The notes beneath the pieces are model-generated. The model was not told where the DNA came from. It searched no databases and was given only the letters and a program-made list of their open reading frames with translations. A program made the translations under genes and the position numbers. A stretch of 64,000 nucleotides of DNA from Synechococcus sp. WH 5701. GTDB taxonomy: Bacteria; Cyanobacteriota; Cyanobacteriia; PCC-6307; Cyanobiaceae. The stretch covers positions 701,499 through 765,498 of the forward strand of contig NZ_CH724160.1 in NCBI RefSeq assembly GCF_000153045.1, written 5' to 3'. Below are positions 22,219-35,768 of this stretch, piece after piece; the stretch's first letter is position 1, and each line of letters begins with the position of its first letter.

Positions 22219-22268
22219 GGATCCGGCCCGTACTTGTGACTTTGTAGCCGAGGTGAGGCTGGCTGTCT

Positions 22269-23298
22269 TCAGTAGGACCGTCTCGACGGGATCACCCCCC
22301 GCACCCCACCCCGTGGCTGCTGACAATCCCCCTCCCGCCTCGGGATCAGATGCCAGTGCGCATGGAACACCGTCTGCCCCGCCGCTTCGCCTGAGTTCAG
22401 CCTGCCCCGCCGCTTCGCCTGAGTTCAGGCCCACGTTCCAGCCGCTGATCGTGGCTTCCTGGGCGCTCAGCTGCTCCCGCCGCAGCTTCAGCAGCGCCAC
22501 CACGGCGTTCCACTCCGGCTGGTGCAGCTCCAGCCCGTCGGCCACCTGCCGACGCGGGATCACCAGGCTGTGCCCCTCGCTCACCGGGTAGGCGTCGGCG
22601 ATGCAGAGCGCCAGCTCGTTCTCCAGCAGCACCCGGCCGCTGCCCTCCAGCGCGCAGAACACACAACCCGCTTCGCGGTGGCCGTAACTGGCCTGCACAC
22701 CGCGGAAGTCGGTGCGATCGGTGTCGCGTTTACCGGCGTTGCAGCGGAAGCAGAGGGCCTGCAGGTTGGTGATGGCGTCGGAGCCGCCCTGGTTCTTGGG
22801 GATGATGTGGTCCACCTCCAAGGCCCGCTGGTGCTCGTGAGCGCCGCAGCACTCGCAGCGGCCCCGGGCGCGGGTGAGCACTCTGTACTTCACCGAGCCG
22901 CTGATCGGGGTGCGGTGGCGGCTGCGGTGGGCAAACACCTCTTCGCCGCGCTGCTCGTGGAAGGCATCAAGGCGCTGGCGGCACAGCTGCTGCAGCGCGT
23001 CGCGCTCGGCGTCACTGAGTTCATCGCCGCCGATCAGGGTGTAAGTGCCATTGCCGTACTGCGTGATGCCGTTGCCGGTGAGCACCTTGCCCACCATCCG
23101 TTTCACCCGTTCCGTGTAGTAGTCGATCTGGGTCACGTCTTCGCCCAGGATTCGCCGGGCCACGTCCTGCGCTGGGGCGGGGCTGTGGCGGCCCAGCAGT
23201 TCCATGAGCATCAGCGGTTGGTAGATGTGGCTCATGCGCATCTGCTTGGCGATGTAGTCGCGCAGGCGAAGGAAGGCAGCGGAGGGGCTGTTGGCCAT
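22269..23298 (-). pseudogene. HNH-HIT fusion nuclease gene, frameshifted by a 28-bp duplication
   Basis: ATG 23298 (MANSPSAAFLRLRDYIAKQM). Residues about 1-110 are an N-terminal domain with RRILGEDVTQIDYYTERVKR. Then comes an HNH nuclease: CECCGAHEHQRALEVDHIIP with CFRCN, i.e. Cys pairs around DHI. The HIT domain follows (CVFCALEGSGRVLLENELAL, then GHSLVIPRRQV). The HIT triad HAHWH is present in DNA near 22350 but out of frame because of the tandem duplication at 22374-22429. Removing one unit restores a reading ending at TGA 22269. As sequenced, the frame instead runs on into the EVE-HNH gene, giving a 673-residue hybrid. Decayed copies of this gene punctuate the TA array that follows. Confidence 0.82.
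22374..22429. repeat. 28-bp tandem duplication breaking the HIT domain
   Basis: Two adjacent 28-base units, 22374-22401 and 22402-22429, identical for 27 bases. The length is not a multiple of three, so it shifts the reverse-strand frame just before the HIT catalytic motif. A recent slippage or recombination event is likely; an assembly artefact is possible. Confidence 0.9.
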
Positions 23299-23633
23299 GG
23301 AGGGATGGTGGCGGCTGCCGGCCACCAGGGCCAGGTTTGGTTTTGGGTGGCCCGTCAGGCAGGCGACTCTGCTGGCTTCCCCTCTGGCGTGGGCATGCGG
23401 CGGCTGCAGCCAACCCGGCTCAGGGAGCTGGTGTGCCACCCCAGCTCCGTTCATCCGCGGGACCGATGGGCAGGCCACGGCAACGCCTGGGCCTCACCCG
23501 GCGGGGGAACGGACAAGAGGATTTGCTCCACCCCCTTGGCCACCTTCGCTGCCGTGGTCCGACAGGGACCAAAGCCGTTGTGTGACGACGCCTCCGTCAG
23601 GAGGCTGGCCGCGTGCCGCTTCCGGGGTGATGT
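23299..23633. other. Leader of the HNH-HIT gene and intergenic repeat region
   Basis: No gene seen. The first 150 bases are the upstream region of the HNH-HIT gene. They recur beside the relics at 29895-30015, 31467-31575 and 33667-33735 (shared stretches such as CCAGGTTTGGTTTTGGG and the GTCAGGCAGG region). The remainder contains a 31-bp repeat at 23592-23622. Confidence 0.6.
23592..23622. repeat. 31-bp dispersed repeat, copy 1
   Basis: Begins CTCCGTCAGGAGGCTGGCCG and matches 24684-24714 with one substitution. It contains the small palindrome GCCTCC-GTCA-GGAGGC. The two copies flank the DUF2283 three-gene module and its adjacent relic. Confidence 0.75.
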
Positions 23634-23849
23634 TCAGGCCGGCTGAAGCACAGGAGAAATCGGAAGCAGGGTCTCGATCGTGCTGCTGTCGCTGATCTGG
23701 GAGTAGTGCTCCAGCGTCACACCCACCGGCTTGCCAAGCTCATCAAAGTCCACGATCACGTTGTCGCTCACCGCCTCTGAGCGGCTGCTCGCCCGGTCGG
23801 CCAGCTCGATGTAGAGGGTGTCGGTATCGGGGAAGTAGCGGATCTTCAT
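23634..23849 (-). CDS. DUF2283 family protein (candidate antitoxin)
   Basis: 71 residues, MKIRYFPDTDTLYIELADRA followed by VSDNVIVDFDELGKPVGVTL, a clear DUF2283 beta-sheet domain. Members are very often the second gene of small TA-like pairs, suggesting an antitoxin or accessory role. It overlaps the upstream gene by four bases. No catalytic motif. The function is inferred from context only. Confidence 0.75.
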   Translation of the reverse strand: MKIRYFPDTDTLYIELADRASSRSEAVSDNVIVDFDELGKPVGVTLEHYSQISDSSTIETLLPISPVLQPA

Positions 23850-24127
23850 GGCTCAGGACGCTCAGCAGGTGGGGAGGTCTTGGACCGGTTTCGGGCCTTG
23901 AGGAAGCCCCGATCAAAAAAGGCGTTGTGCACGGTCTCTCTGTCCTCAAGGGTAATGACCCTGAGCGCACGGTTCTGTACCTCCGGCACCAGGCCCCACA
24001 AGGCGTAGCGACCGTCGGCCTGCCTGCGTTGTTCGAGCGGTTCGGCCATCACCCGCTGGATCCACTCCTCCTCAATCCCTGGGTGCTTCTGGACCACCAC
24101 ATCACGGAAGTAGGCCGTTGTCTTCAC
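23846..24127 (-). CDS. Small putative toxin next to DUF2283
   Basis: 93 residues. The sequence YFRDVVVQKHPGIEEEWIQR, with YALWGLVPEVQNRALRVITL and ETVHNAFFDRGFLK, resembles small alpha/beta proteins regularly encoded upstream of DUF2283 genes and thought to be toxins. The compact size, the conserved WIQ and RVITL blocks and the four-base overlaps on both sides support a TA role. I cannot name the family securely. Confidence 0.6.
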   Translation of the reverse strand: MKTTAYFRDVVVQKHPGIEEEWIQRVMAEPLEQRRQADGRYALWGLVPEVQNRALRVITLEDRETVHNAFFDRGFLKARNRSKTSPPAERPEP

Positions 24128-24315
24128 GCACCCAGCACCTCGTTGGCATCAAGGCCCGGGTCGCCGTCTGCCAGGAACCGCCCCAGCCGATGATCGATCA
24201 GCTCGCGATCGGATTCTGTGAGTTCCGGGCCGATCTGCTCGTCAGCGATGGAATCCCACAGGGTATGGACCAACTCAAGCCGTTGAGCCAGAGGCAGGGT
24301 CAACAGGTCTTTCAC
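24124..24315 (-). CDS. RelB-like putative addiction module component
   Basis: 63 residues: MKDLLTLPLAQRLELVHTLW, then DSIADEQIGPELTESDRELI. This is the short helical addiction-module family (TIGR02574/PF09720), which normally precedes a RelE-type toxin. Here it precedes the 93-residue protein instead, by a four-base overlap. A hybrid three-gene module or a lost RelE gene are both possible. Confidence 0.75.
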   Translation of the reverse strand: MKDLLTLPLAQRLELVHTLWDSIADEQIGPELTESDRELIDHRLGRFLADGDPGLDANEVLGA

Positions 24316-24400
24316 AACATGCCACTCCGGCCAGGCAGGAAACCATCGAATCCCAAATTAGCGATGGTGCTTGGCAGCAGCCGGGATCAGCGCGGGCATG

Positions 24401-24610
24401 GGTGAACACCCGGACTTTCTCGCCGCGCTGCTCGCGGAAGGCATCGAGGCGTTGACGGCACAGCTGCAGCAGCTCGTCGCGCTCGCTGTCGCTCAGCTCA
24501 ACTGCTTCACAGTCTTCGGCTAGTGCATCAGCGGTTGGTCGATGGGGCTCATGCGCATCCGCTCGGCGATGAACTCGCGCAGGCGCTGGTCGGTGGGGGG
24601 CGCGGGCGAG
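24401..24610 (-). repeat. HNH-HIT relic a (decayed 5-prime segment)
   Basis: Matches parts of 22920-23280 of the full gene: the block around CGCCGCGCTGCTCGCGGAAG, then after an internal deletion the block containing CATCAGCGGTTGGTCGATGG and CTCATGCGCATCCGCTCGGC. It has no reading frame of its own. It separates the DUF2283 module from the Fic remnant. Confidence 0.75.
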
Positions 24611-24683
24611 CTTGCCGTGCTGGTGTCAGAGTGGGTTTGACGTGTTGTAAGCCATGGTCAGCTCCGATCCAGGTCTCCAGCGG

Positions 24684-24714
24684 CTCCGTCAGGAGGCTGG
24701 CCGTGTGCCGCTTC
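24684..24714. repeat. 31-bp dispersed repeat, copy 2
   Basis: Second copy of the element at 23592-23622; 30 of 31 bases are identical. It lies in the gap between relic a and the Fic remnant. Confidence 0.75.
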
Positions 24715-24813
24715 GGTCTCGGATCATTCGTGCAGTGGCCAGCTCCACAGCCATCGAAACGGGCTAGTCCATCGCCTTAATTGAAGGCCAGCTTGCGGCT
24801 CGGCGAACCCCTC

Positions 24814-25263
24814 CTAATCACCCCCACCAGGCAACACCAGCCTGAACAGCTGCTGCATCGGAGCGTTGTTCAACACAGCCCCGGCACGGATGGCGGCGAA
24901 ATGGGGATCAAGGGGTGTGCGTTTGTTGAGCTGTTCGCGTTGAAAGGCCTCCAGAAGATCGGGCAGGAGATGGGCACTTGCAAAGGCAAAGTTCCCTTTG
25001 CTCAGGTTGAACTGGCGCACCTTTCCTGCCCATGGATAGACAGCCTCCAGCCAGCGCCGGTGCCATTCGATCACTTCCGCGACAGTGAGACGATGAGGTT
25101 CATCCCCGTTGATGAATATCCCCTCATAGAGCTGAAGCAGCAGATCCTGTTCCAGTGACCCCATGACCCCTGGATCTGTGATTCCCAATCGGTTACGCAG
25201 AACCAAGCCGTTCGAGCCAGGCTCACATTCAGCGGCCGATCCAGAAACGGTGTACCGGTTCAT
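24814..25263 (-). pseudogene. Fic-family gene truncated before the active site
   Basis: The N-terminal 120 residues are Fic-like: YTVSGSAAECEPGSNGLVLR, LGITDPGVM, then LTVAEVIEWHRRWLEAVYPW and AGKVRQFNLSKGNFAFASAH. The frame then ends in unrelated residues (LFRLVLPGGGD) before the catalytic HPFxxGNGR motif should appear. That motif is absent downstream in all frames I checked, so AMP-transfer activity is lost. It is a 3-prime-deleted Fic/Doc toxin gene. Confidence 0.75.
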
Positions 25264-25293
25264 CGGCAGGCGATCCGTAGAAGGCCTTCCGGC

Positions 25294-25624
25294 TCAGACA
25301 GCACCATCCAGCAACCGCCCCTCCCGGAACGCCCTGCCGATCACGTGAGTGCGCCACTGGCGGCGTTCCTCGCACTCCCGCTCGGAGTACAGCAGCAGAT
25401 CCAGCGACACATCCGCTCGCGCCAGCAGCTAGCCAGGCATCCGGGGCCGTGATCAGCAGATCGATGTCCGACTCAGGGCCAGCGGTGCCCCGGGCCCTGG
25501 AGCCGTAGCCGCAGGCTTCTCCGCAGGAGTACAGGCGCACCTCCGAGCCAGGGATCACGCCATGGATCACAGCCGCCATCTCCTGCAGGCGGCTGTCGAT
25601 CGGTAGCGCAACTGGAGTGTTCAT
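25294..25624 (-). pseudogene. MNT-type nucleotidyltransferase gene, interrupted
   Basis: ATG 25624 begins MNTPVALPIDSRLQEMAAVI. The nucleotidyltransferase motif GSRARGTAGPESDIDLLITA (GS plus DxD) is present. A 24-base in-frame insert puts eight extra residues (SCGEACGY) just before GSRARG. A frameshift after PDAWLA then moves the C-terminus (LARADVSLDLLLYSERECEE, ending REGRLLDGAV) to another frame. It is related to the intact gene at 27931-28281. No HEPN partner is seen next to it. Confidence 0.72.
25508..25531. repeat. 24-bp palindromic insertion in the MNT gene
   Basis: The segment begins GCCGCAGGCTTCTCCGCAGG and splits the codons for LYGSRARG. GTA occurs on both sides (25505-25507 and 25529-25531), resembling a 3-bp target duplication around a 21-bp insert. 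A 14-bp core, GCCGCAGGCTTCTC, recurs in an insertion within relic g at 31099-31112. Confidence 0.6.
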
Positions 25625-25627
25625 GCC

Positions 25628-25860
25628 CTGCATTCTGATTCCACTCGCTCGGCGTCGCTCAGCTCGTCGCCGCCGATCAGGCTGTAGGCGCCGTTGCCGT
25701 AGGCGGTGATGCCGTTGCCGTAGGCGGTGAGGCCGTTGCCGGTGAGCACCCTGCCCACCATCCGCTTCCCAGGATCCGCCGGGCCACGTCCTGCGCGGGG
25801 GCGGGGGCATGGGGGCATCCTGGCTGGGGTGTGACGGGGGTGGCACTTGTGGAGGAGAAG
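25628..25860 (-). repeat. HNH-HIT relic b with conserved leader
   Basis: Contains the segment around GCCGATCAGGCTGTAGGCGC with a local 15-bp tandem duplication (GTTGCCGTAGGCGGTGA), the GCCGGGCCACGTCCTGCGC block, and the leader CATGGGGGCATCCTGGCTGG at 25808-25827. Its 5-prime end abuts the plus-strand DUF6883 gene 26 bases downstream. Confidence 0.75.
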
Positions 25861-25885
25861 CCCCGGCGATCAACCTGGCCCAGGA

Positions 25886-26215
25886 ATGCTCCCCCATGCA
25901 GACCACGCGATCGTTGACGATGCCAAGGTCTGCGACTACCTGCTCTCAGACATGCATCCAGTCGGTCGCTTCAAGGCCAGGGTATTTCGTTCACTCGGCT
26001 ACACCGTTGAATACTGGATACGACTTCGTGATGATCTGCTCCACCATGGGCAGACTGGGACGGTTCAGCGGATCGAGATGAGCGCCTATGGGATGAAAGT
26101 TGTCATCAGTGCTACGTTGAAAGGCCCCAACGGTGCATCCAGACCATTCAGAACGGTCTGGCTGATCTCTGATCATTCCAGGCAGCCAAGGCTCGTCACC
26201 GCATTTCCGGAGTAA
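25886..26215 (+). CDS. DUF6883 family protein (candidate toxin)
   Basis: ATG 25886 preceded by CAGGA; 109 residues. MLPHADHAIVDDAKVCDYLL, SDMHPVGRFKARVFRSLGYT and a C-terminal strand VWLISDHSRQPRLVTAFPE match DUF6883, a small domain found alone beside DUF4926 genes or as the C-terminal tip of polymorphic toxins. A toxin role is therefore plausible but unproven. The next gene starts four bases after the stop. Confidence 0.72.
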   Translation: MLPHADHAIVDDAKVCDYLLSDMHPVGRFKARVFRSLGYTVEYWIRLRDDLLHHGQTGTVQRIEMSAYGMKVVISATLKGPNGASRPFRTVWLISDHSRQPRLVTAFPE

Positions 26216-26218
26216 GTC

Positions 26219-26452
26219 ATGTTTGCCTTGCACCAGACAGTTGCTCTCACCCAGGACATTCCCGAGACTGGTCTTCAGTCGGGCGATCTCGGTGCTGTTG
26301 TTGCCATTCACGATCCTGAAACCTATGAGGTTGAGTTCGTCGCCGCATCAGGACGCACGCAATCTCTCCTGATGCTTTCCTCAGCCAGCCTCCGAGCGAT
26401 TGGTGATCAGGATCTGATCGCTGTGCGTTCGCTCGCCACGGCCAAGCATTGA
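26219..26452 (+). CDS. DUF4926 family protein (candidate antitoxin/immunity)
   Basis: 77 residues: HQTVALTQDIPETGLQSGDL followed by GAVVAIHDPETYEVEFVAAS. This is the small SH3-like beta-barrel DUF4926, recurrently the downstream partner of DUF6883. The gene spacing of three bases implies one operon. The likely role is neutralising the partner; no direct evidence. Confidence 0.75.
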   Translation: MFALHQTVALTQDIPETGLQSGDLGAVVAIHDPETYEVEFVAASGRTQSLLMLSSASLRAIGDQDLIAVRSLATAKH

Positions 26453-26515
26453 GTTTCGGACGTGCTCATCGACCCTAAGCATCCGCTCGGCGATGGGCTC
26501 TCCATGCTGTGGGTT

Positions 26516-27205
26516 TGATCTGCACCCGGCCGCTGCCCTCCAGCGCGCAGAACATGCAGCCCGCTTCGCGGTGGCCGTAGCTGGCCTGCACACCGCGGAA
26601 GTCGGTGCAGTCGGTGTCGCGCTTGCCGGCGTTGCAGCGGAAACAGAGCGCCTGCAAGTGGCTGATGGCGTCGGAGCCGCCGTGGTTTTTCGGGACGATG
26701 TGGTCCACCTCCAGGGCCCGCTGGTGCTCGTGCGCGCCGCCCAATTCGCAGCGGCCCCGGGCACGGGTGAGAACCCTGTATTTCACCGAGCCGCTGATCG
26801 GCGTGCAGTGGCGGCTCGGTGGGCGAACACCTCCTCGCCGCGCTGCTCGCGGGAGGCGTCGAGGCGCTGGCGGCACAGCTGCTGCAGCGCGTCGCGCTCG
26901 GCGTCGCTCAGCTCGTCGCCGCCGATCAGGCTGTAGGCGCCGTTGCCGTAGGCGGTGATGCCGTTGCCGGTGAGCACCATGCCCACCATCCGCTGCCCAG
27001 GATCCGCCGGGCCACGTCCTGCGCTGGGGCCGGGCTGTGGCGGCCCAGCTGTTCCATGAGCATCAGCGGTTGGTCGATGTGGCTCATGCGCATCTGCTTG
27101 GCGATGGTGTGCCTCAGGCGCTCGTAGGTGGGGGAGGGGTGCTAGGGCATGGGGGCATCCTGGCTGGGGTGTGACGGGGGGTGGCACCTGTGGGGCAGAA
27201 GCCCT
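26516..27205 (-). repeat. HNH-HIT relic c (longest decayed copy)
   Basis: Nearly the whole N-terminal and HNH coding region is recognisable in two reverse frames: GNGAYSLIGGDELSDAERDA in one, and RALEVDHIVPKNHGGSDAIS in the other, separated by a base deletion near 26815. The first Cys pair is changed (CELGG instead of CECCG), and the HIT part is cut off near 26516. The 5-prime end has the type-2 start (MPPCPSTPPPP) and the leader at 27147-27203. hicB starts 57 bases beyond. Confidence 0.8.
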
Positions 27206-27261
27206 GCGGCGATGCCATGCCCTTTGTCACCCCTTCGGAAAGACTTGGCGAGTTGCCTACG

Positions 27262-27501
27262 ATGAATCCACTGAAGGCAGCAGAGACTGTGCGTACGTTC
27301 TCCGCCGTGATCGAGCGCTGCGCGGACACGGGCCTGCTTGTGGGCTACGTCCCTGGCTTCCCCGGCGCTCACAGCCAGGGGGAGACCCTTGATGAGCTGC
27401 AGGCCAACCTCCAGGAGGTGATCACCATGCTCTTGGAGGACGGCGAGCCGGCCCTGGGGAGCGACTTCGTGGGCCTGCAGCAGATCGTGGTGCCGGCCTG
27501 A
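27262..27501 (+). CDS. hicB: HicB antitoxin
   Basis: ATG 27262, 79 residues: VRTFSAVIERCADTGLLVGY with VPGFPGAHSQGETLDELQAN, the degenerate RNase-H-like HicB fold. A separate DNA-binding domain is not present, so this is the short HicB form. The longer upstream reading overlaps relic c's leader and is not needed. hicA follows two bases after the stop. HicB binds and masks the HicA active site. Confidence 0.86.
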   Translation: MNPLKAAETVRTFSAVIERCADTGLLVGYVPGFPGAHSQGETLDELQANLQEVITMLLEDGEPALGSDFVGLQQIVVPA

Positions 27502-27503
27502 AC

Positions 27504-27728
27504 GTGGGCTCAACCCCCGTCCTCAAGTTCTCTGAGGTGGCGGACATCCTTCGGAAACTGGGCTTCGATGTGGTTCGTCAGCGCGGCTCCCATCTGCAGT
27601 TTCGTGATCCTCGCGGACGCTGCACCACAGTTCCAGTTCACAAGGGACGTGATATCTCTCCTCCGCTGCTTCGTCAGATCGCCAAGGACATCGGCATGAC
27701 CCTGGAGGAGTTCCTCAGCCACCGCTGA
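27504..27728 (+). CDS. hicA: HicA mRNA interferase toxin
   Basis: GTG 27504, 74 residues, the usual HicA length. The dsRBD-like fold shows LKFSEVADILRKLGFDVVRQ followed by RGSHLQFRDPRGRC with the catalytic His (GSH), then TTVPVHKGRDISPPLLRQI. The module looks intact. The antitoxin-first order is less common than hicA-hicB but is known. Confidence 0.88.
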   Translation: MGSTPVLKFSEVADILRKLGFDVVRQRGSHLQFRDPRGRCTTVPVHKGRDISPPLLRQIAKDIGMTLEEFLSHR

Positions 27729-27782
27729 GCACCGAATCGTTGATGTGGCGCAGGCGACGCAGTTGGTGGGTGAGTGGTGATC

Positions 27783-27944
27783 TCAGGCGAGTTGCAGCAA
27801 CCAGGCTTTGAGGGCCTTCTCCAGACACTGCTGCGCGGCCCAACCCCAGCTGGCTTGCTCCACCTCTGGATCCAGCAGGCGGCGGGCCATCCTGAGGTCG
27901 CGGCGTGCGATGCGCAGCAGCCGCAGCGCTTCAGGCCTGGCCAT
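27783..27944 (-). pseudogene. Truncated HEPN-domain gene
   Basis: From ATG 27944 only 53 residues, MARPEALRLLRIARRDLRMA through AAQQCLEKALKAWLLQLA, then a stop. This is the first two helices of a HEPN domain, which normally extends to about 125 residues with the RxxxxH ribonuclease motif. The truncation removes that motif. The gene overlaps the 3-prime end of the MNT gene by 14 bases, the usual MNT/HEPN linkage. Confidence 0.7.
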
Positions 27945-28281
27945 CGAGCAGAACGCCCTCCCGCATGGCCTCGTACACCAGGGAGCCTGGCTCCTTGGCT
28001 CGGCGGGCCACTTCGCTGCTCGAGTGGAGCACCAGGTCGACCGACAGATCCGGCTGGGCCACGGCACCCCAGAGGTCAGCGAGCAGCCCAAAGCGGTCGC
28101 GTTGCGCCAGCCAGGCATCAGGCACGGTGATCAGCAGGTCCACATCGGAGTCGGCCCGGCCATCTCCGCGGGCCCTCGATCCAAACAGACGCACATCAGC
28201 AGCAGGGATCAGCTGGCGAATGCCGGCAACCATGCCCGCCAGCCTCGGCTCGATCGGTTTGGAGGCTGTCGTGGAAGTCAT
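27931..28281 (-). CDS. MNT-domain nucleotidyltransferase
   Basis: ATG 28281, 116 residues (an upstream ATG at 28329 lies in the relic). LIPAADVRLFGSRARGDGRA with DSDVDLLITVPDAW gives the GSxARG and DxDLL motifs of minimal nucleotidyltransferases. Such proteins AMPylate or otherwise modify HEPN RNase toxins and act as antitoxins. The motifs and length are intact, but its HEPN partner downstream is truncated, so this is an antitoxin without a working toxin. Confidence 0.82.
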   Translation of the reverse strand: MTSTTASKPIEPRLAGMVAGIRQLIPAADVRLFGSRARGDGRADSDVDLLITVPDAWLAQRDRFGLLADLWGAVAQPDLSVDLVLHSSSEVARRAKEPGSLVYEAMREGVLLDGQA

Positions 28282-28334
28282 GGATCCATTCTGATGGCCA
28301 CTGGGTTCGCCCGGAAGCAGGCTCACCATCGCTG

Positions 28335-28432
28335 CGGTCTGGATGAAGGCGCGCAGGCGCCCGTAGGTGGCGGAGGCATAGGCATCCTCGCTGGGGTGAG
28401 ACGGGGGGTGGCACTGGTGGAGGGGAAGCCCT
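28335..28432 (-). repeat. HNH-HIT relic d (5-prime end and leader only)
   Basis: Contains GCGCGCAGGCGCCCGTAGGTGG, equivalent to the N-terminal coding part, and the leader GGCATCCTCGCTGGGGTGAG with GTGGCACTGG and GGGAAGCCC. It ends 56 bases before tacA. Confidence 0.65.
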
Positions 28433-28488
28433 TGCGTGCGTCGTTTGTACTAACGTTGTCGAGCTACTCAAGGTGGAGACGGTTCGCC

Positions 28489-28782
28489 ATGGCTGCCATC
28501 GGAGCTTCGCCTCCTGCGCGCTCAGCCCGGCTCGGCCTGCGCGCCACGCCGGAGCAGGAAGCCGTGCTGCGCCGTGCCGCCGAGGCGACCCACAAGTCGC
28601 TCACCGACTTCATCCTCGACAGTGCCTGTCTCGCTGCCGAGCAGACGCTCCTTGATCAGCGCCTGTTCATGGTCTCGGCCTCCCAGGCCCAGGCCCTGAT
28701 GGATCTGCTGGACCGCCCCGAACAGGCCAACGAGGGTCTCCGTGATCTGTTCGCCAGGCAGGCACCCTGGGACGCCCAGTGA
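28489..28782 (+). CDS. tacA: TacA-like DUF1778 antitoxin
   Basis: ATG 28489, 97 residues. RLGLRATPEQEAVLRRAAEA with KSLTDFILDSACLAAEQTLL is the ribbon-helix-helix DUF1778 domain. The C-terminal part (ALMDLLDRPEQANEGLRDLF) wraps the acetyltransferase toxin. The stop overlaps the toxin start by four bases. Autoregulation by the RHH domain is expected. Confidence 0.88.
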   Translation: MAAIGASPPARSARLGLRATPEQEAVLRRAAEATHKSLTDFILDSACLAAEQTLLDQRLFMVSASQAQALMDLLDRPEQANEGLRDLFARQAPWDAQ

Positions 28783-29279
28783 CCTGGCGGCCGCCGGAGC
28801 CGCTGGCCGTCCAGCACCAGCTGGAAGGCTTTGACTGCGGCAGGCCCACACTGAATCACTGGCTACTGCACCACGCCCGCCAGGCGCAGACCAGTGGCTC
28901 GGCCAGAACGTTCGTCGTTGCCGACGAGGCGAATCGCGTCGCCGGCTATTTCAGCCTCACCGTGGGCCAGGTCGACACGGTGGAGGCCCCAGAGCGCATC
29001 CGTCAGGGCATGGGGCGATTTCCGCTGCCCGTGGTCATCCTGGCCAGGCTCGCCGTGTCACGGGAGAACCATGGACGAGGCCTCGGTGTCGGGATGCTTC
29101 AGGACGCGATCCGTCGGACGCTGGTGATCGCCGAGCAGGCCGGAATTCGGGCGATCCTGACCCATCCCATCGACGAAGACGCGGCACGCTTCTACACCCG
29201 GTTCGGATTCACCGCATCGCCACTGCGCCAGCAGCAGCTGCTCCTGCTGCTCAAGGACGCGAGGAAGATCCTCCGGTGA
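28779..29279 (+). CDS. tacT: TacT-like GNAT acetyltransferase toxin
   Basis: 166 residues. The GNAT fold shows LEGFDCGRPTLNHWLLHHAR, the acetyl-CoA-binding LARLAVSRENHGRGLGVGML (RGxG/A-type loop) and the C-terminal AARFYTRFGFTASP with the conserved Tyr. TacT toxins acetylate the amino group of charged aminoacyl-tRNA and stop translation. Complete and coupled to tacA. The stop lies directly against relic e. Confidence 0.88.
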   Translation: MTWRPPEPLAVQHQLEGFDCGRPTLNHWLLHHARQAQTSGSARTFVVADEANRVAGYFSLTVGQVDTVEAPERIRQGMGRFPLPVVILARLAVSRENHGRGLGVGMLQDAIRRTLVIAEQAGIRAILTHPIDEDAARFYTRFGFTASPLRQQQLLLLLKDARKILR

Positions 29280-29333
29280 GCATGGGGGCATCCGGCTGGG
29301 TGAGACGTAGGTGGCATTTGTAAGAGGAGGAAC
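29280..29333 (-). repeat. HNH-HIT relic e (leader fragment)
   Basis: Only the leader remains: CATGGGGGCATCCGGCTGGG followed by TGAGACGTAGGTGGCATTTG. It begins within a few bases of the tacT stop. Confidence 0.6.
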
Positions 29334-29379
29334 ACAGGCAAGTCAGGCCGCCATGTCAGCGCGTGATCGCCGTTGCCCG

Positions 29380-29589
29380 GCCCCACTGCCTGGCGTGCCT
29401 ACGTCCAGCGGGGGTATCGTCAAAGGGCGGCGGGCGATCACTGCCGACACCGATCTGCGCCTGTGCCGTTTCTTCGGTCTGAGTGATGGTTTCTGGCTGC
29501 GGATGCAAGGGAGCCATGACCTGAAGCTGGCCAAGCAGGTTCTGGCGAATGTGTTGCCGGCGATCGAGCCAATCCAGCCAATGGCTTGA
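29380..29589 (+). pseudogene. higA: HigA antitoxin fragment
   Basis: The reading GGIVKGRRAITADTDLRLCR followed by FFGLSDGFWLRMQGSHDLKL is the C-terminal half of a HigA/VapI-type XRE antitoxin. The first helices of the DNA-binding domain are absent, and no HigB toxin is found next to it. The frame extends upstream to 29311 without matching residues. A non-functional remnant is most likely. Confidence 0.72.
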
Positions 29590-29611
29590 GCAGGGTTGGC
29601 GGCTCGGTGCC

Positions 29612-30015
29612 AGCTGATGCCGCCCTCTGCGTCGCTCAGCTGCTCGCCGCCCACCAGGGCGACGGTGCCCTTCTCGCAGTGGGTGATGGCGTTGCCGGTG
29701 AGCACCTTGCCCACCATGCGCGTCCCAGGATCCGGTGGGGGCCACGTCCTGCGCTGGGGCGGGGCTGGCTGTTGCCTGGCAAATCTGTGGCCCAGCAGTT
29801 CCATCAGCATCAGCGGTTGGTCGATGGGGCTCATGCGCATCCGCTTGGCGATGGTGTGCCGCAGGCGAAGGAAGGCAGCGGAGGGGCTGGAGGCCATGGA
29901 GTGATGCTGGCGGCTGTCGGGCGAGCGGGCCAGGTTTGGTTTTGGGCGGCCTGTCAGGCAGGTGCCCCTGCTGGGATCCCTTCTGGCGTGGGGGTGCTGA
30001 GGCTGCAGCAGGTCG
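29612..30015 (-). repeat. HNH-HIT relic f
   Basis: Covers the ALxGGEQLSDAE-coding part through the start and leader of the type-1 form (GCCATGGAGTGATGCTGGCG; CCAGGTTTGGTTTTGGGCGG). It shares a private insertion, GGCTGTTGCCTGGCAAATC, with relic g, so f and g are sister copies. It ends 58 bases before mntA. Confidence 0.78.
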
Positions 30016-30073
30016 GCTAGGTAGGGGTGTCGTGTCCATCGCCCTCGGCGGGGATGCAGTCCAGAATGGGACC

Positions 30074-30388
30074 ATGGCTGTCCCGTCGAACCAGGAAACT
30101 TCCCTTTCCCAGCGGCTCCGGGCCGCCCGCGAGGAGGTGCTTGCCGTGGCTCACCTCCATGGGGCCCGCAACCTGCGGATCTATGGCTCGGTGGCCCGCG
30201 GCCAGGATCGGCCCGGCAGCGACCTTGACCTTCTCGTGGATCTGGAGCGGGGCTGTTCCCTGCTGGAGGTGATCGCTCTTCGGCAGGAGCTGGAAGCTCT
30301 GTTGAATTGCCAGGTGGATCTGGCGGAAGCAGCGCAGTTGCATCCATTGATCCGTGATCAGGTCATCGCGCAAGCAACGGCGTTGTGA
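30074..30388 (+). CDS. mntA: MntA-type nucleotidyltransferase antitoxin
   Basis: ATG 30074, 104 residues. The motif LRIYGSVARGQDRPGSDLDL carries GSxARG and DxD, followed by LLVDLERGCSLLEVIALRQE. MntA inactivates HepT by adding AMP to a conserved tyrosine. The stop overlaps the hepT start by four bases. Both genes are complete, making this the only evidently intact MNT/HEPN module of the three or four in the array. Confidence 0.9.
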   Translation: MAVPSNQETSLSQRLRAAREEVLAVAHLHGARNLRIYGSVARGQDRPGSDLDLLVDLERGCSLLEVIALRQELEALLNCQVDLAEAAQLHPLIRDQVIAQATAL

Positions 30389-30726
30389 GCAAGGATCTCC
30401 TTTACCTCACCAGCATTGGCGAAGCCCTTGAGCGCATCACTCTCTACACCATGGAAGGCCGCGCAGCTTTTCTTGCTTCCACGCTTCTGCAGGATGGAGT
30501 GATACGCAATCTGATCGTGATCGGCGAGGCCGTGAAGAATCTGTCGGCCGACCTTCGCGAGTCCGAAACGACTACTCCTTGGAAGTCCATCGCCGGCATG
30601 CGGGACGTTCTTATTCATGATTATCTGCGTGTGAATCTGGAGCAGGTCTGGGAAACCGTGGCGCGTGACCTACCACCCCTCGGTCTCACCGTTCGCTCAC
30701 TGATTGAACGGCAAAGGAACGATTGA
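30385..30726 (+). CDS. hepT: HepT HEPN-domain ribonuclease toxin (DUF86)
   Basis: 113 residues: YLTSIGEALERITLYTMEGR, VIRNLIVIGEAVKNLSADLR and the catalytic motif RDVLIHDY (R-x4-H with the Tyr target two residues later) at about residues 73-80. HepT is a tRNA- or mRNA-cleaving RNase held inactive by MntA. Family length is normal. Downstream, 30727-30844 has only a short unexplained frame (MNPLDYQKRVILPLPVPG). Confidence 0.9.
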   Translation: MSKDLLYLTSIGEALERITLYTMEGRAAFLASTLLQDGVIRNLIVIGEAVKNLSADLRESETTTPWKSIAGMRDVLIHDYLRVNLEQVWETVARDLPPLGLTVRSLIERQRND

Positions 30727-30844
30727 TCTGCAAAGCGAGCATCGTCTGCTGCCCAAGAGACCCACCATGAACCCCCTGGATTACCAGAAGCGGGTGATCC
30801 TGCCGCTGCCCGTCCCTGGCCTGCAGGTAGTTGGTGCGGCCCTC

Positions 30845-31575
30845 TCGCCTTGGCCATCACCATCGCGCTTGCCGGCGTTGCAGCGAAAGCAGAGCGCCAG
30901 CAGGTTGCTGATGTCGTCTGGGCCGCCGTGGTTCCACCGCTGCGCGGAAGGCTTCGCCTACGGGATGATGTGGTCCACCTCCAGGGCCCGCTGGTGCTCG
31001 TGCGCGCCGCAGCACTCGCAGCGGCCTCGGGCGCATCGGTGAACCCGGTACTTCACCGAGCCGCTGATCGGGGTGCGGTGGCGGCTGCGGTGGCCGAAGC
31101 CGCAGGCTTCTCAACAAACAAACAAGTCATCACTTCGCCGCGCTGCTCGCGGAAGGCATCGAGGCGCTGGCGGCACAGCTGCTGCAGCTGGTCGCGCTCG
31201 GCGTCGCTCAGTTCGTCGCCGCCGATCAGGCTGTAGGCGCCGTTGCCGTAGGCGGTGATGCCGTTGCCGGAGAGCACCTTGCCCACCATCCGCTGCCCAG
31301 GATTCGCCGGGCCACGTCCTGCGCTGGGGCGGGGCTGGCTGTTGCCTGGCAAATCAGTGGCCGAGCAGTTCCAGCAGCATCAGAGGCTGATCGATGGGGC
31401 TCATGCGCATCCGCTCGGCGATGAACGCGCGCAGGCGAAGGAAGACAGCAGAGCGGCTGGAGGCCATGGAGTGATGCTGGCGGCTGCCGGGCGACCGGGG
31501 CAGGTTTGGTTTTTGGCGGCCCGTCAGGTTGGCACCCCTGCTGGGATCCCTTCTGGTGTGCCACCCCAGCCGCCT
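30845..31575 (-). repeat. HNH-HIT relic g
   Basis: Covers the HNH region (GCGTTGCAGCGAAAGCAGAG, TGATGTGGTCCACCTCCAGG) through the N-terminus and type-1 leader. Two palindromic insertions interrupt it: GCGGAAGGCTTCGCC at 30944-30958 and GAAGCC-GCA-GGCTTC at 31096-31110. The leader ends just before the mazE operator repeats. Confidence 0.8.
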
Positions 31576-31580
31576 GAGGC

Positions 31581-31600
31581 GTCTATACCTCTGTCTATAC
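31581..31600 (+). promoter_or_regulatory. Direct repeats upstream of mazE
   Basis: GTCTATAC occurs at 31581-31588 and 31593-31600, a 12-base offset, immediately before the mazE start (31606). The offset is near one DNA turn, suiting cooperative binding by an AbrB-fold antitoxin. Candidate operator; inference only. Confidence 0.45.
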
Positions 31601-31605
31601 GCCTG

Positions 31606-31872
31606 ATGTCCATGGCCGCCACCCCTTCGCGCCAGGCCCTGCGCCGCTGGGGCAACAGCCTTGGCATTCGCCTGCCTGCAGCCATCGCCCGGGAGGCTCG
31701 GCTGCAGGAAGATCAGGCCGTGGAACTCTCCGTCGTGGAAGGTAGGGTGCTGATCCGGCCGGTTCAGCCTCGCCTGTCTCTGGCCGAACGGCTGGCGGCC
31801 TACGAGCCCATGCCTGGCGAACCCACGGAGGCCATGGCCTTCCCTCCGGACGGGGCTGAGGTCGTCGAGTGA
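31606..31872 (+). CDS. mazE: MazE-like AbrB-fold antitoxin
   Basis: ATG 31606 (or 31612), 88 residues. The swapped-hairpin DNA-binding domain is RRWGNSLGIRLPAAIAREAR with AVELSVVEGRVLIRPV, followed by an acidic C-terminal toxin-binding tail. The stop overlaps the mazF GTG start. It should repress the operon through the repeats upstream. Confidence 0.88.
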   Translation: MSMAATPSRQALRRWGNSLGIRLPAAIAREARLQEDQAVELSVVEGRVLIRPVQPRLSLAERLAAYEPMPGEPTEAMAFPPDGAEVVE

Positions 31873-32219
31873 ACCCCCGCCGAGGGGGCCAGGCGTGGGT
31901 GCCCGATCGCGGTGACGTGATCTGGATCGATCACCACCCTTTTGCGGTGCTGTCCACCGCCTCCTTTCACGCCACCGTGGGCCTGGTGGTGGGCTGTGCG
32001 ATGACCTCAGCTCCCTACAACAGTGGTTCCACCTTTGCTGTGGATCTGGGCCCGATCCACGATCGTCCGGGCGCTCACAGCTATGTGCTGTGCCAGCAAC
32101 TCAAATCCTTCGACTGGCGCGCCAGGGGCGCTCGCCTCCATCCACTCGGGCGACTGAACGACTCCCAACTGGAGGAGGTGATGGCGATTGTGGGGCAGAT
32201 CCTTGGCTTGGTGGTGTGA
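31869..32219 (+). CDS. mazF: MazF mRNA interferase
   Basis: GTG 31869 overlaps the mazE stop; 116 residues. The fold motifs are RGDVIWIDHHPFAVLSTAS with an unusual loop after GDV, GLVVGCAMTSAPYNSGSTFA, the catalytic-region strand SYVLCQQLKSFDWRARGA and the C-terminal LEEVMAIVGQILG. MazF cleaves single-stranded mRNA at short motifs. Intact by length and core motifs. Confidence 0.88.
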   Translation: MNPRRGGQAWVPDRGDVIWIDHHPFAVLSTASFHATVGLVVGCAMTSAPYNSGSTFAVDLGPIHDRPGAHSYVLCQQLKSFDWRARGARLHPLGRLNDSQLEEVMAIVGQILGLVV

Positions 32220-32339
32220 GTCAGGGGCCTTCAGGTGAAACCCCTGGGCGCGAGGTCTCCCGGCATCGACGTCCTTGCTGCTCAGCAGCTCTGGAACGAT
32301 TCGGAGCTCCTGGAGCTTCCCGCCCGCACCACGACCGCG

Positions 32340-32463
32340 ACCAGTGCATTCGATTGATTTCCGTTCGACAGTCCAGACCAGAGGAGGTGGAGCTCGGCGT
32401 CACACGTCAGTCGATCATCAAGGTGTGGCTGGCGGAGCGGCTGGAGCCGCGGACGTCTGCTTG
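32340..32463 (+). pseudogene. Remnant of a CopG-like antitoxin gene with internal deletion
   Basis: The leader TTGATTTCCGTTCGACAGTC, continuing into CAGACCAGAGGAGGTGGAGC, equals that of the gene at 33382. It then jumps, missing the start and about 150 bases, to the C-terminal codons for VTRQSIIKVWLAERLE. It preserves the unshifted C-terminus that the 33382 copy has lost. Confidence 0.72.
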
Positions 32464-32482
32464 AGCGCGGAGCGCGGAACGA

Positions 32483-32866
32483 TCAGGAGGCCATCACCTC
32501 CACATGGCAGCGCAGTCCAGGTGCCCGGGCAGCACGGCTGTCGCCGGTGAGAAGTGTGGCTCCCAGCTCTTCGGCCAGGGCCACGTAGAGGGCGTCGTAG
32601 GCCGTGAGGTTGCTGCGCAGCTCCCAGGCCCGTGGCCAGAGGTGGCGGCTGACATGACGACGCAGGCCAAGCCGTTGGGCCGTGGCCAGGGCCTGCAGCG
32701 CGTGCTGCTCAGCAAGCTGATCGGCCAGCACCAGCCGGCGCAGCACCGAGAGCAGCTCGGCATCGATCAGATCAGGCGCCTGGAGGTTGGCCTCGGCCAG
32801 CCTGTCCCTGGCTGCGCCTTGGATCAGCAGCGCATCCACCAACACCGAGGCATCCACCACCACCAT
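32483..32866 (-). CDS. vapC: VapC-type PIN ribonuclease toxin
   Basis: 127 residues: MVVVDASVLVDALLIQG with the first Asp, DLIDAELLSVLRRLV with Glu, and TAYDALYVALAEELGATLLT with the two later Asp. All acidic residues of the PIN site are present. It overlaps the antitoxin gene (ATGA). VapC toxins cleave initiator tRNA or rRNA. Confidence 0.88.
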   Translation of the reverse strand: MVVVDASVLVDALLIQGAARDRLAEANLQAPDLIDAELLSVLRRLVLADQLAEQHALQALATAQRLGLRRHVSRHLWPRAWELRSNLTAYDALYVALAEELGATLLTGDSRAARAPGLRCHVEVMAS

Positions 32867-33090
32867 CAGCGTTCTGCCCGGATCTGCCGCAGTGCCTCCA
32901 GGATCCTGCCGTGGTCGATCGGAGCCGATGGCAAGGCATTGAGCAGGTCTGCGTTGTCGGCGCGGCGAGCGGTTTCGCTGAGTTCGCGCAGGGCGAAGGT
33001 GCTCAGGGGCAGCCCAGCGCGGTTGGCCAATCTTTCGAGCCGCTCCGCCACGTCATCGGGAACGTGGCGGATGTAGAGGGTGCGCGGCAT
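32866..33090 (-). CDS. vapB: VapB/FitA-like antitoxin
   Basis: ATG 33090, 74 residues. LYIRHVPDDVAERLERLANR with AGLPLSTFALRELSETARRA is a FitA-like ribbon-helix-helix domain. The tail (SAPIDHGRILEALRQIRAER) binds the PIN toxin. The upstream extension to 33405 lacks similarity and crosses another remnant. Confidence 0.85.
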   Translation of the reverse strand: MPRTLYIRHVPDDVAERLERLANRAGLPLSTFALRELSETARRADNADLLNALPSAPIDHGRILEALRQIRAER

Positions 33091-33122
33091 CTCTGTCAGG
33101 CTGCTTGCTCGCTGCTTGCAGC

Positions 33123-33323
33123 CTAGTGGCTGGTGGCTCGTTCCTTCTGTTCGATCAACGCTTCGGCTCTGTCGCACCAGGCTGCGCGATCCAGGCTGAG
33201 ATCTTCGGGTTCGTCGTCGTAGCAGTACTGCACAGCGAAGGTGGTGAAGGCACGGGCAGCAGCAGGCGGGAGATGTCGTGGGTAGACGGTGGCGTTCTGT
33301 CGAGATGGTGCAGCCAGGCCCAC
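33123..33323 (-). pseudogene. C-terminal HEPN-domain fragment
   Basis: The frame reads ARAFTTFAVQYCYDDEPEDL followed by SLDRAAWCDRAEALIEQ, resembling the final helices of HEPN-domain proteins; the N-terminal helices are not present. It complements in kind, though not necessarily in origin, the truncated HEPN at 27783. No nucleotidyltransferase is adjacent. Confidence 0.5.
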
Positions 33324-33381
33324 TACCAGAGCATCCGATTGATTTCCGTTCGGCGGTCCAGACCAGAAGAGGTGGAGCTCT

Positions 33382-33611
33382 ATGAACAGTTCTGATTTCG
33401 ATCAACGTTTCGATGACGGCGAGTCCGTTCTCGAGGCCCTCGACCTCGGCGGTGCCCGTCGCCGTCGGCTGGAACAGAAACGCGTCAATGTCGACATCCC
33501 TGTGTGGATGATCGACCAGCTCGATCGCGAAGCCAGCCGCCTCGGCGTCACGCGTCAGTCGATCATCAAGGTTGGCTCGCGGAGCGGCTGGAGCAACGGA
33601 CGTCTGCTTGA
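33382..33611 (+). pseudogene. CopG/BrnA-like antitoxin with a C-terminal frameshift
   Basis: ATG 33382 after a good ribosome site (GAGGTGGAG). SDFDQRFDDGESVLEALDLG, then KRVNVDIPVWMIDQLDREAS and RLGVTRQSIIKV, are typical of ribbon-helix-helix antitoxins of the CopG/BrnA kind. A one-base deletion near 33570 (AAGGTTGGC for AAGGTGTGGC) replaces the final WLAERLE helix. The read-through frame ends at 33675 inside relic h. No toxin gene remains upstream. Confidence 0.72.
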
Positions 33612-33637
33612 GCGCAGTGCTGTGACTTCTATCCAGA

Positions 33638-33735
33638 AAGATGAGGCAGCAGAGGGGCTGGAGGCCATGGAGTGATGGTGGCGGCTGCCGGGCGTTTCGG
33701 CCAGTTCTGGCCTTGGGTGGCCCGGCCAGGGGGAG
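33638..33735 (-). repeat. HNH-HIT relic h (start and type-1 leader)
   Basis: GAGGCAGCAGAGGGGCTGGA, then GGCCATGGAGTGATGGTGGC and the altered leader CCAGTTCTGGCCTTGGGTGG. Here the relic abuts the 3-prime end of a minus-strand TA module, unlike the other relics. Confidence 0.7.
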
Positions 33736-33742
33736 CAGTCCC

Positions 33743-34144
33743 TCATGTTGCGGCTGCCGCCATGAACCGCACCGGCCCCGGATACGCCGCCAACTGGCTG
33801 TCGGCCGTGATCAGCAGCAGTCCGTCGACCGTGGCCTGGGCCAGCAGCAACCGGTCGAACGGGTCGCGGTGCAACGGCGGCAGCTGGGCCACCGCCAGGG
33901 CATGACGCGCTTCGATGGCCAGCTCCTGCCAGTTCCCCTCCAGCAGGGCCCGGCGCAGCACGGCGGGCTGCACGTTGAAATCAGGCCGCCCCGGGCCCTG
34001 CTTGATCACCAGCTCCCACAGGCTCGCCACGCTGAACACCGGCGTGTGGCGCGGATCTTCCAGCATCTCCGCCAGCCCGGGTGGCAGCCGTTGGGGCGAC
34101 CCCATCGCCCACACCACGAGGTGCGTATCGAGCAGCAGATCCAT
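33743..34144 (-). CDS. PIN-domain toxin of a Phd/VapC pair
   Basis: ATG 34144, 133 residues. MDLLLDTHLVVWAMGSPQRL, VFSVASLWELVIKQGPGR and RDPFDRLLLAQATVDGLLLI followed by TADSQLAAYPG carry the Asp and Glu residues of the PIN active site; the LLLDTHxxxW start is typical of the type that partners Phd antitoxins. The antitoxin gene ends eight bases upstream. Confidence 0.88.
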   Translation of the reverse strand: MDLLLDTHLVVWAMGSPQRLPPGLAEMLEDPRHTPVFSVASLWELVIKQGPGRPDFNVQPAVLRRALLEGNWQELAIEARHALAVAQLPPLHRDPFDRLLLAQATVDGLLLITADSQLAAYPGPVRFMAAAAT

Positions 34145-34152
34145 GGCGCCGA

Positions 34153-34413
34153 TCAGCCGCCTTGCCCAGAGCCCTCGAACAGATCCGCAATCGTGCCGGC
34201 CGCCATCCGATCGAAGTCGTCGGGCACCTCGCACTGCCCCTGAAGCAGGCCCAGGCGGCGTCGCTCAGGCTCGGCGTTGCCGGCGTCAGCCAGGGCAGTG
34301 ACGCGCACCATCGGCCGGCCGGCCTTGCAGATCACGAACCCTTCACCCGCCGCCGCCGCCTCCACAAGGCGGGAGAGGTGGGTCTTGGCTTCGTGCATGT
34401 TCACCTGACGCAT
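34153..34413 (-). CDS. Phd/YefM-family antitoxin
   Basis: ATG 34413, 86 residues. MRQVNMHEAKTHLSRLVEAA followed by GEGFVICKAGRPMVRVTALA is the Phd fold that binds operator DNA and, through its tail, the PIN toxin. Complete. It marks the right edge of the TA array. Confidence 0.88.
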   Translation of the reverse strand: MRQVNMHEAKTHLSRLVEAAAAGEGFVICKAGRPMVRVTALADAGNAEPERRRLGLLQGQCEVPDDFDRMAAGTIADLFEGSGQGG

Positions 34414-35662: not shown

Positions 35663-35768
35663 TCGCTGAGGACACCGTCCGGTGTTTCGCCGCCAGCCGC
35701 AGCGCAGCCAGGGCCCCGCCGGCCGGCCGCCTGAGACAATCCACCCTCGCCTGCTTCCGCGGAAACCC

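Follow-up and report, generated by a model that had tools for sequence, protein, structure and literature searches.

Introduction

Clusters of attC sites that lack an integrase are known as CALIN, and the silent cassettes of pilS and vls are exchanged through repeats by general recombination. In excerpts of a study of the Vibrio cholerae superintegron, toxin-antitoxin (TA) cassettes, 19 among 179, are described as stabilizing the array (PMC11551772), and excerpts of another study report that genomic islands of Synechococcus CB0101 contain type II TA pairs (PMC5498466). Here we describe a locus of Synechococcus sp. WH 5701, located in a stretch of 64,000 nucleotides (contig NZ_CH724160.1, positions 701,499 to 765,498; hereafter the window), in which decayed copies, or relics, of a gene encoding a protein with HNH and HIT domains (the HNH-HIT gene) alternate with differing TA modules across 22.3-33.8 kb. 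From the sequence comparisons below, we propose that the locus is probably a TA cassette array whose modules are moved by general homologous recombination between the relics that serve as its joints.

As far as the excerpts of the V. cholerae study go, the locus resembles the superintegron in being a directional array of small, reordering cassettes with TA genes among them; it differs in that its joints are HNH-HIT relics instead of attC sites, its breakpoints are dispersed, the window has no integrase gene and the Pfam-labelled cargo of relic arrays is mostly TA. Like a CALIN, the relic array consists of cassettes with no adjoining integrase, whereas no attC was found within relic arrays and the window lacks the two or more attC sites without intI that define a CALIN. 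Repeat-mediated general recombination would be shared with pilS and vls, except that whole independent modules, rather than variants of one gene, appear to be exchanged. CB0101 likewise carries type II TA pairs in a picocyanobacterium, but the passages excerpted from its description contain no array or relic joints, and 'HNH' has 0 occurrences in that text (PMC5498466). Among the papers listed by searches of the open PMC library, a scope with subscription papers and preprints outside it, we saw no description of such relic-jointed TA arrays.

Results

Relics of the HNH-HIT gene form a one-strand array

Comparison by blastn of 22268-23640, which includes the head copy of the gene, with the window gave matches at 24420-24714 (in three pieces), 25646-25806, 26522-27164, 29621-30009, 30863-31570 and 33644-33724, all of them oriented alike, and self-comparison of the window added two relic matches, at 28354-28432 and 29280-29329. 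Nine matches of at least 45 bits to the HNH-HIT query lay within 23.9-34.0 kb on a single strand; the best scored 744 bits, compared with a best score of 34.6 bits across 100 dinucleotide shuffles. The minus-strand relics recognized in the initial annotation of this DNA are thus real. All eight of its segments match the gene or its leader, with the qualification that 29280-29329 is leader only and that the segment at 28335 is mainly leader with about 50 nt of the gene. Segment 33644-33724 consists of the start codon region and leader. Two leader types occur in the window: type A (23299-23410) is matched at 29873-30009, 31443-31570 and 33644-33724, and type B recurs at 25797, 27137, 28366 and 29280. 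As the annotation had proposed, six plus-strand modules begin beside the 5' end of a relic or a leader. The units of the array are as follows.

22269-23298, minus strand: head copy of the HNH-HIT gene, the array's first unit, with a full-length model match (Pfam HNH 1.1e-14, HIT 6.4e-6)
23299-23410, minus strand: leader type A of the head copy (repeat comparison)
24398-24598, minus strand: HNH-HIT relic 1 (sequence matches)
25646-25870, minus strand: HNH-HIT relic 2 with leader type B (sequence matches)
26380-27213, minus strand: HNH-HIT relic 3 with leader type B, overlapping the end of DUF4926 at its own 3' end
28342-28432, minus strand: HNH-HIT relic 4, 5' tip with leader type B (sequence matches)
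29280-29329, minus strand: leader type B remnant alone (self-comparison)
29596-30009, minus strand: HNH-HIT relic 5 with leader type A (sequence matches)
30692-31570, minus strand: HNH-HIT relic 6 with leader type A (sequence matches)
33644-33791, minus strand: HNH-HIT relic 7, start codon region with leader type A, the array's distal end

An unrelated second direct repeat (87-93% identity) was observed near the distal end, at 32329-32468 and 33314-33620.

Relic arrays are found across the lineage

A protein search of 60 relatives revealed strong HNH-HIT fragment groups in all eight congeners and in a genome of another genus (G013), and some HNH-HIT match in 59 of the 60, the others among the matches listed being weak and mostly to the HNH part. 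Scanning named genomes yielded 56 loci, 55 of them cyanobacterial by title; the 56th, L107 from an Anaerolineales metagenome-assembled genome, had a weak match to the HIT part only and no relic. With seven loci from genomes already represented removed, the set comprised 59 loci containing 269 relic units, with at least two units in 51 loci, and all 338 relic segments lay on one strand. The relic array is a lineage-wide system and not a local oddity, nor is misassembly its cause, because the single-contig genome G004 and the complete SynAce01 chromosome (L090) both contain arrays. Genome G002 was seen to carry, apart from its main array, a lone HNH-HIT relic (L050:8593-9044; G002:C54). Carriage on phages or plasmids was considered and set aside: 50 phage and 16 plasmid records match, none covering 80% of the protein.

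The site of the array also recurs among loci. In the named loci, 17 of 44 HNH-HIT 3' ends are followed by an HNH_2 gene, and two window genes, at 35682 and 36826, have relatives in 13 and 12 of the 59 loci, respectively. The former is labelled dCTP-deaminase-like on the basis of a single Pfam DCD match among the relatives' open reading frames (ORFs), and the latter is presumably GH57-like.

Modules are shared across genera in scrambled order

We compared 208 inter-relic intervals from 42 genomes (loci grouped by record name) using high-scoring segment pairs (HSPs) of at least 150 bp. A module counterpart in another genome was present for 202 of the 208 intervals, which contradicts the local amplification of one unit ('nuclease gene, divergent leader, TA module') inferred in the initial annotation. 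Nearly all of the 1274 module HSPs ran in the same direction (1267 versus 7 opposite), and module order varied between strains: among internal relic pairs, the 5'-side module was common to 272, the 3'-side module to 217 and both to only eight. In having one-orientation cassettes with strain-variable order, relic arrays are like integrons.

The boundaries of the relics also followed the modules beside them. For pairs sharing only the 3'-side module, the 3' end agreed within 15 positions in 80 of 209 (3.6% of random pairs) and the 5' end in 40 of 209 (random, 16.0%), and for pairs sharing only the 5'-side module, 264 in all, the 5' end agreed in 121 and the 3' end in 12. The 3' end of a relic tracks its 3'-side module and the 5' end its 5'-side module, with approximately random agreement otherwise; the two ends of one relic have, on this comparison, independent histories. 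Together with the alignment of relics beyond chance, this independent assortment supports the earlier suggestion that relics provide homology for cassette-like swapping of modules.

Modules form a pool that is shared across genera. Three window modules were sought in 61 family genomes, giving eight full or near-full copies of at least 90% identity besides their own, spread over several genera. All eight are in relic arrays, which answers in favour of the relics a check proposed at the outset, namely whether the same modules occur without relics in related genomes. The DUF6883/DUF4926 module (25847-26452) has copies of 90-97% identity in G007, G013 and G078, the TacA-GNAT module (28489-29279) a 95% copy in G067, a different genus, and the mntA-hepT-type module (30074-30726) copies of 91-92% in G007, G013 (two pieces), G061 and G063. 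Four diverged homologues (68-74%) were retrieved and had no relic within the retrieved stretch; other short, weak matches were not retrieved. Identity between modules exceeded that of flanking genes by more than three points in 78 of 152 module pairs (median excess 3.4), which is at most suggestive of transfer because flank genes may evolve faster.

Breakpoints within relics are dispersed

Breakpoints were analyzed in pairs of at least 93% identity, a change point being counted at a log-likelihood ratio of at least 10. A change point was present in 57 of 69 pairs on the right side, 33 of them inside relics over model positions 153-1131, and in 68 of 78 pairs on the left side, 23 of them inside relics over positions 60-953. 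The breakpoints inside relics are dispersed, as homologous cassette exchange with joints of mixed origin predicts, and many others lie at the tract edge. Crossover at one site only, the minimal 45-bp core of the relics (model 301-345), had also been considered and was dropped because the inside breakpoints are scattered. Relic 5' ends recurred at two places, model 166-170 (59 of 338 segments) and model 299-304 (31 of 338). The first boundary roughly coincides with the start of a second leader type; a deletion reaching from the start codon to model 301 was seen with both leader types and in several strains.

Comparison of close strains showed module gain or loss at relic borders, as had been anticipated. 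Locus L088 (Synechococcus sp. BO 8801) is without three modules (4.6 kb) of L084 (Cyanobium sp. N.Huapi 1H5), and the colinear blocks, 95.7% and 96.1% identical, stop 17 bp inside one relic and resume at the edge of another, so that both breaks are at relics. The relic at the join is closer to the left L084 relic before approximately position 12340 and to the right one after it. Within one array, a 683-bp module is duplicated (98.1% identity), and on either side the identity disappears no more than 20 bp from the relic edge.

Several observations weigh against exchange by recombination between relics. Change points fell at the relic edge in 24 of the 57 pairs on the right and 45 of the 68 on the left, leaving exchange at a preferred place near the start codon, or older overlaid events, as alternatives. 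The join relic of L088 is only about 85-88% identical, compared with 96% for the blocks, and so is no clean two-parent hybrid; because of this shortfall, the join probably involved a third relic or a second exchange. Ends of blocks of at least 95% identity had relics on both sides in 81 of 148 cases, on one side in 24 and on neither (that is, in modules) in 43, where relics with 40 bp on either side cover 40.6% of the arrays; the enrichment of block ends in relics is only moderate and is no rule. Finally, only 8 of 27 HicA matches in nine genomes lie inside arrays by their coordinates, and such TA genes therefore also occur outside arrays.

The HNH-HIT gene is intact in other strains and broken in the window

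The head copy at 22269-23298, initially taken as intact, is broken by a perfect 28-bp tandem duplication (22374-22428) that shifts its HIT end to another frame; intact 333-aa HNH-HIT genes are present in other strains. Vulcanococcus limneticus LL (L053) is one example of a strain with an intact gene. Because the head copy of this genome is broken, the HNH-HIT protein seems dispensable for upkeep of the array here. We aligned 11 intact proteins (ten of 333 aa and one of 334 aa; two shorter proteins of 326 and 319 aa were excluded), all of which retain the cysteines and histidine of the HNH domain as well as the HxHxH motif of HIT. Differences among ten intact genes were distributed 22/17/61% over codon positions 1/2/3, compared with 26/22/52% between relics and the closest intact gene, and 152 of 215 relics carried a frameshift indel relative to the closest of the ten. 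This codon-position pattern and the frameshift indels indicate a source gene under selection, most of whose copies are decaying.

Among 20 arrays of at least three units that include a full-length copy, this copy stood at the head in 17 (4.27 expected), a count that is somewhat biased because the loci were retrieved via the HNH-HIT gene itself. Single HNH-HIT copies with approximately 10 kb of relic-free sequence upstream were observed at L071 (Synechococcus sp. 8F6, intact) and L080 (5'-truncated), possibly representing ancestral or emptied states. NCBIfam gave the protein solely matches below cut-off, to IscB-HNH, HinT and similar families, and its AlphaFold model was poor (pLDDT 48.4) and was left out of the analysis.

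Integrons occur in the same genomes, with attC sites at the HNH-HIT 3' end

The integron integrase family TIGR02249 was above cut-off in nine of nine genomes of the genus, none of 14 controls and 22 of 24 further genomes carrying the HNH-HIT gene. In the genome of the window, integrase genes are located at C8:270004-270942 and C8:930797-931555, and no integrase gene lies at the window array, which starts at C8:723768. Elsewhere the two are closer: in L089 an IntI gene, attC and an array lie in a row, and in L105 and L052 the 5' ends of IntI genes are near relics.

An attC covariance model was built from 17 sites beside integrases of the genus; in 19 integrase loci, the positive control, it gave 35 matches, 17 of them the training sites and two weak. 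An earlier search by core motifs had been rejected as too loose: it gave 37 candidates in arrays (308.6 kb), several of them inside relics, versus 58 in integrase loci (278.6 kb). Among the matches listed for the genome of the window (150 of 1371 candidates scored) were 14 attC sites, some far from either integrase and none in the window, where even with filters off the best E value within 20.5-36.5 kb was 1.6. In 62 array sources (940 kb), none of 22 attC matches lay between relics, and all 22 shared one orientation relative to the HNH-HIT gene. Conversely, the 19 integrase loci (278.6 kb) contained no relics and no match of at least 120 bp to the 208 array modules.

In eight loci of seven genomes (L055, L057, L061, L072, L074, L080, L089 and L042; L055 and L080 belong to one genome), an attC site begins at a distance of 1-11 nt from the HNH-HIT 3' end. 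Seven of these loci were counted as such among 44 copies that reach the HNH-HIT 3' end, and the eighth is L042/G003, the same place as L095, under which name it was tallied without its attC because the attC search covered L042 and not L095. The side of attC at the HNH-HIT 3' end is, assuming standard attC orientation, where the following cassette would begin. The initial annotation's array 'without a visible integrase' describes the window correctly and the wider setting less so, given integrases in all nine genomes of the genus and these eight loci. In our reading, integrons and relic arrays, whose present joints are not attC sites, are two cassette economies with the HNH-HIT gene as their meeting point. 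In L080 and L061, the HNH-HIT copy was observed to separate the attC-bearing side from relatives of the genes on the right flank of the window, so that one chromosomal site may there be common to integron and relic array.

Pfam-labelled cargo of the arrays is mostly TA

The modules of the window and the genes that border the array are listed below.

21277-22230, minus strand: HNH_2 gene immediately 3' of the head copy (Pfam HNH_2 7.3e-14)
23634-24315, minus strand: module of DUF2283, an unnamed ORF and Unstab_antitox (Pfam)
24814-25263, minus strand: module with a Fic/DOC-like ORF (Pfam below cut-off, 18.7 versus 24 bits)
25847-26452, plus strand: module of DUF6883 and DUF4926 (Pfam 1e-25 and 1e-18)
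27181-27728, plus strand: hicBA module (Pfam HicA 1.3e-18; HicB-like 1.4e-5, below cut-off)
27783-28329, minus strand: module of HEPN and nucleotidyltransferase (Pfam)
28489-29279, plus strand: module of TacA antitoxin and GNAT toxin (Pfam TacA1 3.9e-24, Acetyltransf_7 7e-9)
29311-29589, plus strand: module fragment ('higA fragment'; HTH_3 in related modules of relatives)
30074-30726, plus strand: module of mntA-hepT type, nucleotidyltransferase and HepT-like (Pfam)
31606-32219, plus strand: module of MazE and PemK/MazF (Pfam)
32483-33090, minus strand: module of a PIN toxin gene (32483-32866; Pfam PIN 5.4e-12) and a small ORF upstream
33743-34234, minus strand: PIN-domain gene adjoining the last relic (Pfam PIN 8.4e-10)

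Toxin and antitoxin domain pairs in adjacent ORFs, as in type II TA systems, were found by Pfam among the window proteins. The identities first given to the six plus-strand modules are supported by Pfam for five, with HicB below cut-off; the sixth, the 'higA fragment', has no Pfam match, and its last part matches modules of relatives whose ORFs carry HTH_3.

A wider tally covered 438 ORFs of at least 65 aa from intervals of ten genomes, intervals longer than 3 kb being excluded. The majority of these ORFs are chance frames without any match, and the Pfam-labelled cargo is mostly TA. Among the families listed were HepT/NTase, HEPN, PIN, VapB, TacA-GNAT, BrnT, HicA/HicB, HigB, HTH_3, MazE/PemK, ParE, CopG, Unstab_antitox, DUF433/DUF5615 and DUF6883/DUF4926, with a few others (DUF5996, TMEM175, NOV_C, hydrolase, ADH, MPAB, DCD). 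The best-scoring ORF was divergent from HNH-HIT in 111 of 208 intervals, oriented the other way in 25 and ambiguous in 72.

Discussion

We propose that the units of this system are TA modules and its joints directly repeated, decayed copies of the HNH-HIT gene and leader. Recombination between joints, within an array or with incoming DNA of other strains, would delete, insert or swap modules and would leave joints whose two ends differ in history. Shared orientation, scrambled order, independent relic ends, dispersed breakpoints and sharing across genera are all apparent at the sequence level and fit such exchange. The engine would be general recombination of the RecA type, and TA addiction may prune deletions, explaining why Pfam-labelled cargo is mostly TA. 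Each module was perhaps born by a rare illegitimate joining to an HNH-HIT copy, with the module-specific 3' truncation as its scar.

Alternatively, the array could be a degenerate part of a chromosomal integron, in which IntI acting on attC sites inserted and orders the modules. The integrases of the genus and of most further HNH-HIT carriers, the uniformly oriented attC matches of array loci, in eight of which attC adjoins the HNH-HIT 3' end at 1-11 nt, and the proximity of IntI to arrays or relics in L089, L105 and L052 all speak for such a link. Exchange at attC would, however, keep the relic 3' end with the 5'-side module, an agreement that was near random (12 of 264); moreover, no attC match lay between relics or, among those listed, in the window, and the integrase loci lacked both relics and array modules. 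We consider this explanation unlikely for the present arrays, and possible if limited to the origin of the fixed orientation, which may derive from an integron.

Less probable still is a site-specific recombinase, perhaps the HNH-HIT protein itself, acting at a preferred place near the start codon of the HNH-HIT gene. It would account for the recurrent relic 5' ends, for the left-side change points at the relic edge and for conservation of the intact proteins, but breakpoints inside relics are spread out, the 166-170 boundary approximates the start of the second leader type, both leader types show the 301 boundary and the head copy of the window is broken. Tandem duplication and decay alone, with TA modules that were inserted once and never swapped, would produce direct repeats in varied states of decay such as the relics are; we give it very little credence, as the scrambling of module order and the independence of relic ends over 42 genomes contradict it and a module copy in another genus is 95% identical. 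Exchange by general recombination between relics thus remains our preferred explanation. A fuller scenario, which we offer tentatively as a speculative extension, is an integrase-free cassette system beside true integrons, in which repeated copying and decay of a lineage-specific HNH-HIT nuclease gene supply the recombination tracts of a pool common to picocyanobacterial genera, the intact product in some strains cuts relics to start exchange, and TA addiction retains captures.

A gene-cassette array is usually taken to be an integron. The pool described here extends across genera, its joints are decayed gene copies and its engine, so far as can be judged from sequence, is ordinary homologous recombination; the same genomes contain integrons whose integrase genes are full-length. 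Two ways of running a cassette array can therefore be compared in these genomes as they occur in nature. The arrays also suggest a possible explanation for the clustering of TA genes, namely that only addictive cargo survives between direct repeats, and they offer a direct test of whether TA genes stabilize repeat-flanked DNA.

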